NCBI RefSeq assembly: GCF_026230195.1
Contig: NZ_CP036501.1
Span: 930,001-994,000, forward strand
Direction: 5' to 3'
From: Candidatus Paraluminiphilus aquimaris
Lineage (GTDB): Bacteria; Pseudomonadota; Gammaproteobacteria; Pseudomonadales; Halieaceae
DNA length: 64,000 nucleotides
Shown: positions 43,289 through 62,550 of the stretch, piece after piece
Layout of the letters: every line of letters begins with the position of its first letter
Numbering within the stretch: the first letter of the stretch is position 1
Notes under the pieces: model-generated
The model's database searches: none
The model's input: the letters and a program-made list of their open reading frames with translations, nothing else
What the model was told of the DNA's origin: nothing
Translations under genes and position numbers: made by a program

Positions 43289-43374
43289 GGTGCCCAGGAG
43301 AGGACTTGAACCTCCACGCCCTTGCGAGCACTAGCACCTGAAGCTAGCGTGTCTACCAATTTCACCACCTGGGC
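43289..43374 (-). tRNA. tRNA-Leu(CAG)
   Basis: 86 nt including an encoded CCA. Acceptor stem GCCCAGG/CCTGGGC with discriminator A; D-loop region TTGGTAGAC; anticodon stem CTAGC/GCTAG with loop TTCAGGT, anticodon CAG (genomic 43338-43340); long variable arm TGCTCGCAAGGGCG; T-arm GGAGG-TTCAAGT-CCTCT. It reads CUG codons and closely resembles E. coli tRNA-Leu(CAG). It is read opposite to rnr. Confidence 0.96.
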
Positions 43375-59121: not shown

Positions 59122-60237
59122 ATGCGCCATTCAGACGAAAAGTGGATGGCAGAGGCGATCAAAGTAGGTCGCCAGGCGCGCGTATGGTCAGCCCCTAACC
59201 CCGCTGTGGGGTGCGTAATCGTAAGAGATGACGCGCTACTGGCAGCGGGCTTTACGCACCCTACCGGGCAGCAGCATGCAGAGATACATGCACTTTCGCA
59301 GATAGACGATGCAGTCGGTGCTACTGCCTACGTTACATTGGAGCCCTGTTCGCACACCGGGCATACGGGCCCCTGCGTTGATGCCTTGATCGGCGCAGGT
59401 ATCGTGCGCGTGGTGCTTAGTTGTGTTGACCCCGATCCGCGCGTGGCGGGTAAAGGGGTTGCCAAGCTTGAGTCAGCAGGTATCGATGTTACGACCGGGG
59501 TGCTTGAGGCGCAGGCGCACGATGAACTCAAAGGCTTCTTTCTCCGCCTGTCACGCGGCTGGGGCAGGGTAACGGTTAAAATGGCAATATCAGCCGATGG
59601 TCGATCGGCGATGGCCTCGGGTGAAAGTCAGTGGATTACGGGGGCCGCGGCCCGCGCAGATGTTCAGGCGTGGCGTGCGGAGAGCGATGTCATTTTAACC
59701 GGCAGCGGTACCGTGATGGCCGATGACTGTGCGTTGACCTTGCGCCAATGTGAGAACCGACTCTCAGAGGCCGACTGGCAACGCGCGCTGGCTAAGCCCA
59801 CAGCGCGTGCCGTAGTGGATTCTTCAGCGACGATTACCCACGACGCCAAGGTGGTCAGTGGTGACACCCCCACTTTCCTCTTCGTCCGTTCCGACGCACA
59901 AGCGTCAACGGATATGCCAAGCTCCGTGAGCTACATTCCTCTTGATGCCCAAGAAAAAGGCGTCGATTTAAAGGCCGTCTTTAAACTACTTGGTGATAAA
60001 GGAGCGAATGAGATCCTGGTTGAGGCGGGCCCCACATTAGTAGGCGCGCTGCAGCAGGCGGACCTTATTGATCGGTGGTTGATTTACATGGCACCTACAA
60101 TGTTGGGCGCCGATGCGAGACCGGCACACGCCGCAGTCTTTAAAAAGCTCAGTGACGCCCCAAGATACTCAGTTACGGGTCACGAGCTGATCGGTGATGA
60201 CTTGCGTATTATCATGCGCGCGGCACAAGACAGCTAG
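59122..60237 (+). CDS. ribD: Bifunctional riboflavin deaminase/reductase RibD
   Basis: 371 aa; second and third steps of riboflavin synthesis. Deaminase zinc site HAEIHAL and PCSHTGHTGPCVDALI; reductase domain KMAISADGRSAMASGESQWI and VEAGPTLVGALQQADLIDR. The ATG at 59122 is the family start (MRHSDEKWMAEAIKVGRQAR); the open frame to 59017 lies inside nrdR. Confidence 0.97.
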   Translation: MRHSDEKWMAEAIKVGRQARVWSAPNPAVGCVIVRDDALLAAGFTHPTGQQHAEIHALSQIDDAVGATAYVTLEPCSHTGHTGPCVDALIGAGIVRVVLSCVDPDPRVAGKGVAKLESAGIDVTTGVLEAQAHDELKGFFLRLSRGWGRVTVKMAISADGRSAMASGESQWITGAAARADVQAWRAESDVILTGSGTVMADDCALTLRQCENRLSEADWQRALAKPTARAVVDSSATITHDAKVVSGDTPTFLFVRSDAQASTDMPSSVSYIPLDAQEKGVDLKAVFKLLGDKGANEILVEAGPTLVGALQQADLIDRWLIYMAPTMLGADARPAHAAVFKKLSDAPRYSVTGHELIGDDLRIIMRAAQDS

Positions 60238-60273: not shown

Positions 60274-60930
60274 ATGTTTACCGGAATCATTCAATCCGTA
60301 GGGGAGGTGGCTGCTATTGAGCCTGCGGATGGCGATGTCAAACTCAGAATCAAGACGGGGAAGCTGCCGCTTGCCGACGTTCAGTTGGGCGACAGCATTG
60401 CGACAAACGGCGTCTGCTTGACGGTGACAGAGCTTCCCGGTGATGGCTACTGGGCTGATGTTTCTAACGAAACCCTCTCCCTCACCTCGCTTAAAGGAAT
60501 CAAAGTGGGCAGCGCGGTGAATCTTGAAAAGTCGTTAACCCCGACAACCGCTTTGGGCGGGCATTTGGTAAGCGGCCATGTCGACGGTTTGGGTAAAGTC
60601 GTCGCGTTGGCTCGAGACGCCCGGTCATGGCGCGTTACTATCGAGGCACCTGCAAATCTAGCGAAGTATATTGCTCAAAAGGGCAGTATTTGTATCGATG
60701 GAACCAGTCTGACCGTCAATTCGGTAGAAGGTTCTCGGTTTGATTTGAATATCATTCCACAGACGTGGGAAGAGACAGTTTTCAGTCATTATGCAGTCGG
60801 TACTGAGGTGAATCTCGAAGTAGACATTATTGCGCGATATTTAGAGCGTCTGCTGCAATCAGGTGTTGTGCCATCTAGTGAGGGCGTTACTCTAGACACC
60901 CTCAAAAATGCGGGGTATCGCAGTGATTGA
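60274..60930 (+). CDS. ribE: Riboflavin synthase (alpha subunit)
   Basis: 218 aa; dismutates two lumazines to riboflavin. Typical start MFTGIIQSVGEV, then two lumazine-binding barrels, each with a VNLEKSLTP- or VNLEVDIIARYLERL-type end and GGHLVSGHVDGLG, SICIDGTSLTVNSVE. The last 23 bases overlap the RibB-RibX gene. Confidence 0.97.
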   Translation: MFTGIIQSVGEVAAIEPADGDVKLRIKTGKLPLADVQLGDSIATNGVCLTVTELPGDGYWADVSNETLSLTSLKGIKVGSAVNLEKSLTPTTALGGHLVSGHVDGLGKVVALARDARSWRVTIEAPANLAKYIAQKGSICIDGTSLTVNSVEGSRFDLNIIPQTWEETVFSHYAVGTEVNLEVDIIARYLERLLQSGVVPSSEGVTLDTLKNAGYRSD

Positions 60931-62035
60931 TTCAGTTCCTCCAGCGTCCGCTGATCAGTTGATCAGCGAATTCAGGCGCGGTCGTAAGGTCTTATTAGTG
61001 CTCGACCAAAGTGATGGTGAGCAAACAGGTGTTGTCGCGATGGCAGCTGAGTACTGTGAGCCCGATGACATCACCTTCATGGCACGAAAGGCGAGGGGTC
61101 TTGTGAGCCTCGCGTTGACAGAGGAGCGTTGCGAGCAACTCAATTTGCCGCCCATGGTGGATCCCGCGACGTCCGGAGCGGTCAAGTTATCCATCGAGGC
61201 AAGTACCGGCATTGATACGGGTATCTCGGCGGTGGATAGAGCGCGGACCGTGAGAGTAGCGGTCGCAGCCGATGCCAAACCCTCAGATCTGGTTCAGCCG
61301 GGTCATATTTTTCCTGTAGCGACGCTCTCGGGCGGTGTTCTCATTCGCACGGGTGCAGCGGAGGCGGGTGTTGATCTCGCCTCGCTTGCGGGTCTTACAC
61401 CTGCAGCAGTTTTTGCCGAGGTGCTTGATGCAAAAGGTGAGATGGCCAACGCCGAGGCGTTGGTAGACTTCGCTGAAAAGCATGAGCTGACAGTTGGCCG
61501 AGTAACGGACCTTGTCGATTACCGCCTAAATCACTCGCGAACCGTCGATTTAATTCGCAGTGGTAAGGTGCAAACAGGGCACGGCGAGTTCTTGCTTTCC
61601 GTGTATCAGGAGAGCACCCAAGGTCATGTCCACATGGCGTTGAGTAGCGGCGATATTGAGGCTGATAGGCCGACTATCGTGCGCGTGCATACCACATCCG
61701 CACTGAGAGATTTGATGTCGATATCGGCGCCAGATCGCGCTTCCTGGTCTATTCAAGAAAGCTTGGTCCGAGTGAGTGAAGAGGGTTCGGGTGTCGTGGT
61801 CTTCATCAATAAAGACGAGACAGATGGTGAGCTCTTAGCCCAAGTGGACGCGGTATTAGGTCGCGAAACAGTAGATGATTCGCAGCAGCGTTCCGTGGGT
61901 TATTCGCAAGTAGGTATGGGGGCGCAAATCTTGCGCGACTTAGGCGTTGGTAAAATCCGCCTCATGGGGTCGCCAGTAAAGTACAATGCGCTCGAGGGCT
62001 TCGGGCTTGAAGTCGTTGAGTTTATAGAGCCATAA
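60908..62035 (+). CDS. Degenerate RibB-RibX protein (putative pseudoenzyme)
   Basis: 375 aa with the RibB fold then a RibX-like C-terminus. Fold-level matches: INFMAR-like [39 protein letters not shown] (His133), [13 protein letters not shown] (Glu171). But the acidic loop is DQSDGEQTG in place of DDEDRENEGD, so R37, E40 and D42 become G, T and V; C66 becomes S; GHTE becomes GAAE (H153 to Ala). The C-terminus has no cyclohydrolase II zinc Cys (RibX-type; [20 protein letters not shown]). By known RibB chemistry it should be inactive in both halves, yet the frame is whole and lies between ribE and ribH. GTG 60923 with GGGG upstream is an alternative start. Confidence 0.85.
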
Positions 62036-62067
62036 GCCGCGCTAAGCGCGTGACGAGGAGAAGAGAA

Positions 62068-62550
62068 ATGGCATCACAAACAATTGCTACAACCGAAGGT
62101 CAGCTTCACGGTGTTTCTGGAAAGTTTGCCTTAGTGGTTGGACGCTGGAACAGCTTTGTCGTCGAGCACTTACTTGAAGGTGCAATCGATACGCTAAAGC
62201 GTCACGGTGTGAGTGAGGATCAGTTACACATCGTTCGCGCACCTGGTGCCTTTGAGATTCCACTTGTGTGTCAGGCCGTTGCCAAGCGTGGCGATGTCGA
62301 CGCCATTATTGCGCTCGGTGCTGTCATCCGTGGTGGAACACCTCACTTCGAGCACGTTGCTGGCGAATGTACGAAAGGCATCGCGCAAGTATCGCTCGAC
62401 TCGGGTATTCCCATTGCGTTTGGTGTGTTAACCGTCGACTCCATTGAGCAAGCCATCGAGCGCTCTGGTACAAAAGCCGGGAATAAAGGCGCAGAAGCGG
62501 CCACGAGTGCACTCGAAATGGTCAGTTTGCTTGGTGAATTAAACAACTAA
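62068..62550 (+). CDS. ribH: Lumazine synthase
   Basis: 160 aa; condenses the pyrimidine with dihydroxybutanone phosphate. [29 protein letters not shown] and [18 protein letters not shown] are conserved. ATG 62068 follows GAGGAGAAG; the in-frame GTG at 62050 is upstream of that site. Its stop overlaps the nusB start (TAATG). Confidence 0.97.

Follow-up and report, generated by a model that had tools for sequence, protein, structure and literature searches.

The riboflavin (rib) cluster in the 64-kb window, i.e., the whole stretch of DNA analyzed here, has the gene order nrdR-ribD-ribE-W-ribH-nusB-thiL, where W denotes a degenerate RibB-RibX paralog that is the fourth gene in this order, lying between ribE and ribH (60908..62035, + strand). 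The NCBIfam profiles name the other rib genes as ribD (59122..60237, +; TIGR00326, 318.9 bits with a cut-off of 156.35), ribE (60274..60930, +; PRK09289, 244.8 bits with a cut-off of 155), whose end shares 23 bases with the start of W, and ribH (62065..62550, +; TIGR00114, 177.9 bits with a cut-off of 84.6). At the Rfam gathering score, the window, its segment 57147-63942 included, yields no FMN riboswitch, and the sole Rfam match is a tRNA at 43291-43374 (- strand). The reading frame of W is open over 375 amino acids and encodes an intact RibB-RibX protein: residues 17-205 match the Pfam DHBP_synthase domain (PF00926) with 196.1 bits, above the cut-off of 26.4, and residues 219-373 (61562..62026, +), which constitute the GTP cyclohydrolase II-like RibX half, match PF00925 with 123.3 bits. 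The best solved relative of W by sequence is 6mnz_A.

RibBX was reportedly described by Brutinel et al. in 2013 as a RibB fused to a cyclohydrolase-dead RibX. W shows this architecture, with a RibB half followed by a cyclohydrolase-like half devoid of zinc cysteines: C50 and C75 are the only cysteines of the window protein, and since none lies past residue 75, the RibX half lacks the cyclohydrolase II zinc site, as the initial annotation had stated, and W is without the three zinc cysteines of a RibA. It scores 47.5 bits against TIGR00505 (GTP cyclohydrolase II; cut-off 205.85) and 169.3 bits against TIGR00506 (RibB), the latter being below the curated cut-off of 177.45.

Alignment of W with E. 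coli RibB (1g57) bore out the active-site substitutions listed in the same annotation (G, T, V, S, and A in place of R37, E40, D42, C66, and H153), with the C66 of that list becoming C67 once the methionine is counted: R37 is replaced by G37, E40 by T40, D42 by V42, C67 by S67, H153 by A150, and T154 by A151. Loop 1, the cis catalytic loop (residues 33-40; 61004..61027, +), is degenerate through the changes at R37 and E40, with the alignment of residues 33-36 being uncertain, and E38 is the only one of R37, E38, E40, D42, C67, and H153 that the window protein retains. V42 (61031..61033, +) follows shortly after this loop, and S67 (61106..61108, +) occupies a position at which 45 of the 59 W sequences have C and 14 have S. 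Loop 2 (about residues 81-94; 61148..61189, +) has three residues fewer than its E. coli counterpart, and A150-A151 (61355..61360, +) stand at the metal ligand H153 and at T154. The stretches that had been singled out as fold-defining are indeed retained, namely VDRARTV (109-115), GHIFP (132-136), and E171 (E. coli E174), as are T104 and D110 (E. coli T107 and D113) of loop 4 (residues 99-110; 61202..61237, +) and loop 5 (residues 128-134, LVQPGHI; 61289..61309, +). With the catalytic residues gone from one half and the zinc cysteines from the other, both halves of W look catalytically dead, as originally suggested; judged by its residues, W is a RibBX in architecture only, probably without the competent RibB half of that class, and is predicted to be neither a functional RibB nor a functional RibA.

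Complementary residues in a second RibB copy

DHBP synthase (DHBPS) is a proposed antibacterial target. In reviewed structures it is a homodimer, with the active site at the subunit interface (PMC10366380, available part). In the V. cholerae enzyme, as set out in the available sections of PMC5228156, loops 1 (34-41), 2 (82-98), and 3 (175-185) of one monomer form the active site, which is completed by loops 4 (103-111) and 5 (132-138) of the other monomer; loop 4 is proposed to cover the site of the partner as a lid in which T108 and D114 (T107 and D113 in E. coli) are central. The same sections give T108 as strictly conserved in the published alignment, report that T108S abolished and D114S reduced the activity of M. 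jannaschii DHBPS, and describe simulations in which Mg entered with T108S and T108V, the authors asking for experimental tests, V. cholerae mutants included (PMC5228156). By this model, loop 4 of W would be a lid over the active site of its partner, and loop 5 would line that site.

Two PF00926 genes, and no more, are present in the genome that contains the window (G000; a single contig of 2.72 Mb, 98.7% complete): W and a second one, likewise a RibBX, that we term BX (G000:C1:2319390-2320490), which adjoins thiolase and nitroreductase genes. BX scores 233.8 bits against TIGR00506 and, with its motifs DDEDRENEGD and GHTEA, is the second ribB with intact DRENEGD and GHTE motifs that the initial annotation had suggested looking for; it retains all the residues lost from W (R37, E40, D42, C67, and H153). 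The accompanying claim that the true RibB lies elsewhere holds insofar as a gene with intact motifs exists, but that gene is without the loop-4 lid residues T107 and D113, which W keeps, and a true RibB acting independently of W is not supported so far. Position 107 of BX is P in 28 of 29 sequences and A in one, and position 113 is Q in 24 and G in five. The resulting loop-4 motif, GPG[VI]S[AS]xQ, in which G108 is kept and S110 mostly so, could be a working variant of the lid. A separate set of positions, R63, C75, and E100 (E. coli numbering; at least 95% conserved in the outgroups), is C, A, and D in 29/29 BX, with W keeping R63 in 57/59 and C75 and E100 in all sequences; these may also be interface positions.

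We aligned and counted 59 W, 29 BX, and 81 outgroup RibBX proteins, each distinct sequence being counted once (11 of the retrieved W or BX loci are absent as identical copies or fragments), with the W and BX labels following BLAST similarity to the two proteins of the window genome and the outgroup set being rich in close Marinobacter and Pseudomonas. T107 and D113 are found in 81/81 outgroup proteins, 59/59 W, and 0/29 BX. R37, E38, D42, and H153 are found in every outgroup protein and every BX, and in 2, 8, 0, and 23, respectively, of the 59 W, so that the E38 of the window protein is a residue seen in few of its orthologs. For a position-wise comparison we considered positions with an outgroup conservation of at least 95%, with conservation below 80% counting as loss. 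Loops 1-3 have 12 positions lost in W only, none in BX only, and five kept by both. In loops 4-5, where we added D113 to the trans set although it is slightly beyond the published range of loop 4, no position is lost in W only, five are lost in BX only, one (V105) is changed in both copies, and seven are retained by both. The distribution of W-only and BX-only losses over the two loop sets gives a Fisher p=1.6e-4, and the same test with a 50% loss threshold (table 10, 0, 0, 4) gives p=0.001. In the RibB domain outside the loops, 16 positions are lost in W only, eight in BX only, one in both, and 32 in neither, so that BX has changed elsewhere too; likewise, BX has not lost every trans element, since both copies retain H136 and the greater part of loop 5.

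Mean entropies follow the same division, with values for the outgroup, W, and BX of 0.12, 1.91, and 0.00 in loop 1, 0.44, 0.55, and 1.29 in loop 4, and 0.78, 1.09, and 0.52 over the whole RibB domain; BX is the most conserved of the three groups over the domain, yet the most variable in loop 4. Forty further genes, read after the pattern had been stated, agree with it in 40/40 cases. Their labels came from the position of each gene in the PF00926 ranking, which is shaped in part by the catalytic residues but is not determined solely by the two lid residues, and for several of them the other copy of the same genome had already been read. In this later set, 20/20 BX have P107 and Q113 with R37, E38, E40, D42, C67, and H153 intact, and 20/20 W have T107 and D113, with R37, E38, and D42 present in none. 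Reciprocity holds in 24/24 genomes with both copies in the alignment. A second family, f9, fits the same pattern in 5/5 W and 5/5 BX sequences, sampled from six genomes, of which four have both genes, one W only, and one BX only. These sequence counts overstate the evidence, since losses fixed from the ancestor of both families amount to few independent events.

Distribution, phylogeny, and selection

Among 100 genomes of the window's family (26 genera), PF00926 genes number two or three in 87, one in 12, and none in one, and the number is two in each of the 14 genomes assembled into no more than about ten contigs. One genome in about 30 contigs (G059; 97% complete) has a single PF00926 gene, a BX without the lid, and the genomes with fewer than two such genes count against the pairing proposed below. 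Among 245 genomes drawn from the order, 11/11 Halieaceae and 4/5 f9 genomes have two such genes. Nineteen other genomes of this draw also have two or three PF00926 genes, and other divided pairs may exist among them outside the two families. In 47/47 Halieaceae and f9 loci where W was called, it adjoins genes of the rib cluster, nusB, or thiL, and in five more such loci (L198, L202, L206, L207, L209) W was missed by the gene filter and found afterwards; the few 'W' labels at L088, L094, L095, and L228 do not mark W genes, being weak matches located elsewhere or close to a normal RibBX. In ten outgroup loci of the order, a normal RibBX occupies the place of W in the cluster. A W profile run across the class (370 genomes, with G000 as the sole family member) recovered no additional W among the top matches, where a more diverged W lower in the match list would escape detection, and 29 loci read from among the best non-family matches (L240-L268) all keep both loop sets.

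A 68-row tree that excludes the loop columns places W in one clade (SH-aLRT 99) and BX in another (92). Both clades contain f9 as well as Halieaceae, which indicates that the W/BX duplication predates the split between these families. A gene from family f4 (L091, genome G039) groups with BX (SH-aLRT 99) and keeps T107 and D113; being the only PF00926 gene found in its genome, it provides a natural single-copy control, and a relative of that genome (G163) likewise has one PF00926 gene.

The losses in W are layered phylogenetically. Outside the window's genus (g1, in or near Luminiphilus, and referred to by that name here), loop 1 of W reads DDDADxNEGV, with R37, E38, and D42 lost and E40, C67, and H153 retained; in Luminiphilus, E40 is also changed to T and H153 to A, P, R, or K, and the window's subclade has the C67 to S change in addition. 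The substitutions first noticed in the window gene are hence real but not special to its genome, the loop 1 losses being family-wide and the further ones a property of the genus. The comparison with sister genomes, which had been proposed as a check, found the same losses in 32 of 33 same-genus W, the remaining one being a fragment. Chance and sequencing error as causes of the losses are ruled out by their recurrence in these relatives and by the low dN/dS of W given below, and a genus-specific oddity by the family-wide occurrence of W.

The proposed dN/dS comparison places W under purifying selection, with values of 0.004-0.037 in three close pairs (dS 0.15-0.31). Between the window genome and a close relative (G006), W gives 0.027-0.028, at a dS above 1 and saturated, and BX gives 0.008-0.009. 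W is a conserved, family-wide paralog with a dN/dS of about 0.03.

The GTP cyclohydrolase II gap

Canonical RibA (219-246 bits) is present in 18/21 outgroup genomes of the order and in 0/37 genomes of the window's genus. A different cyclohydrolase II of ~270 aa, which passes the PRK00393 cut-off, occurs in 29 of these 37 genomes, with the cysteines intact in ten translated sequences. Compared with other genera of the family, the window's genus and the genomes G061 and G137 carry an N-terminally extended cyclohydrolase II in the stead of canonical RibA, which it seems to have replaced in these lineages.

In G000, no zinc-cysteine cyclohydrolase II was recovered by searches with PF00925, TIGR00505, the ~270-aa variant (273 aa), or PF05165; the search with the 273-aa variant was without its own positive control, and the PF00925 search found the variant in the 29 of 37 same-genus genomes. 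Both G000 and G006, each a single contig, are without a recognizable zinc-cysteine GTP cyclohydrolase II. The ~270-aa gene is absent beside the agmatine deiminase gene in both (G000:C1, L109 10399-10494; G006, L110 10706-10932), its neighbors being present in order and closed up over its place, and the rib pathway is otherwise present in the two genomes. As neither G000 RibBX copy has the zinc cysteines, neither can replace cyclohydrolase II, and W in particular is ruled out as the missing enzyme by its cysteine-free RibX half; the step of riboflavin synthesis that yields the first pyrimidine intermediate is left without a recognizable zinc-cysteine enzyme in G000 and G006. Comparable genomes exist in other families: G041 (L081), G042 (L082), and G054 (L083) are near-complete and have a rib cluster with RibBX and no recognizable RibA, the single PF00925 match in each being a RibX half without zinc cysteines.

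A proposed heterodimer and its relation to known systems

Both genes are present and conserved, W is under strong purifying selection, and the residue losses of the two copies are complementary. On the strength of these residue patterns, we propose, with a probability of roughly 0.7, that W and BX form a heterodimer that constitutes one DHBP synthase, in which BX supplies the chemistry and W the lid. BX would carry the metal-binding and catalytic loops, and W would pair with it such that the loop-4/loop-5 lid of W reaches over the BX active site, as between the subunits of an ordinary homodimer, with the BX lid facing the dead active site of W. Each copy would in this way have lost what the other supplies. 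A W:W dimer would place a conserved lid on a dead site, and a BX:BX dimer would have a live site with the lid missing; because only the W:BX dimer explains what each gene has kept and lost, we propose W as the lid subunit and BX as the catalytic subunit. We further infer that W binds BX, that the mixed dimer alone has (full) activity, and that the RibX halves leave this picture unchanged. The earlier suggestion that W is a regulator, scaffold, or new enzyme would accordingly be best narrowed to a second, lid-bearing subunit of DHBP synthase.

The pair also resembles a prozyme-like system in that a dead paralog under purifying selection occurs with a catalytic paralog in the same genome; the latter, which is without T107 and D113 in 29/29 and 20/20 BX, may be impaired on its own. 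For Halieaceae and f9 as a whole, we consider it probable that an obligate heterodimer has replaced the homodimer, with one working site split over two genes, neither of which would suffice alone, and that this arrangement arose by reciprocal decay of duplicates.

A different role is unlikely but has some evidence in its favor, namely that W is a separate regulator of riboflavin synthesis, e.g., via its RibX half, and that BX acts by itself in homodimers whose lid is changed yet still works. W has a well-preserved RibX half, the RibX half of the S. oneidensis RibBX reportedly regulates the RibB domain (as cited in the available part of PMC10012899), and the retention of G108 and, mostly, of S110 together with the almost fixed P107 in BX (28/29) may point to a selected loop-4 variant. 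Such a regulator leaves unexplained why a dead RibB domain should keep the lid residues in 59/59 and 20/20 proteins, and why a live homodimer should lose residues that are kept in 81/81 outgroup proteins. It is quite improbable that W is a new enzyme, or a sugar-phosphate- or flavin-binding protein, outside DHBP synthesis: the retained fold-defining residues, H136, and E171, along with the dN/dS of about 0.03, do indicate some selected function for W, but loop 1 and the H153 region vary among the W proteins of a single genus (H153 is replaced by A, P, R, or K), which is not what a conserved new active site would show, and the most conserved site-lining part of W faces the partner subunit. That W is a decaying relic, as the progressive loss of its catalytic residues, most pronounced in the window's genus, might suggest, is scarcely credible and already disfavored by a clade spanning two families, the dN/dS range of 0.004-0.037, and the lack of any internal stop among the W frames read.

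If the W:BX heterodimer is correct, it would represent a natural experiment on loop roles, with the loop-1 and loop-4 variants made separately; as these variants occur separately, the lid model, which rests largely on simulations, would become directly testable. It would also be an instance of a duplicated homodimer becoming an obligate heterodimer through complementary loss, and a warning against annotating the operon gene as ribBA. Our literature searches, with most subscription journals outside their coverage, found no DHBPS heterodimer or riboflavin pseudoenzyme, of which a description elsewhere is possible, and none of the items on Luminiphilus with riboflavin concerned a divided DHBPS by title.

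Among known systems, RibBX, as presented in the available part of PMC10012899, resembles W in its two-domain layout, its place in the rib cluster, and its RibX half without zinc cysteines, but has a working RibB half, whereas that of W is predicted to be dead and BX is without the loop-4 lid residues. The RibB proteins of E. coli and V. cholerae share with W a fold-level sequence match and conserved loops 4 and 5; they are homodimers with two complete sites, in contrast to the half site that each gene would contribute here. Arabidopsis RIBA3 is, like W, a RIBA-family paralog that has lost DHBPS activity through replaced catalytic residues (PMC3509567, available part). It differs in keeping cyclohydrolase II activity, with RIBA1 and RIBA2 keeping DHBPS, whereas W is without both residue sets, and the available part of that paper describes no complementary lid loss (PMC3509567). 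The closest analog comes from an unrelated enzyme and organism: in the trypanosomatid deoxyhypusine synthase, as given in the available part of PMC3663545, an impaired catalytic subunit and a dead paralog make an active heteromer, an arrangement experimentally demonstrated in that case and proposed for W and BX.
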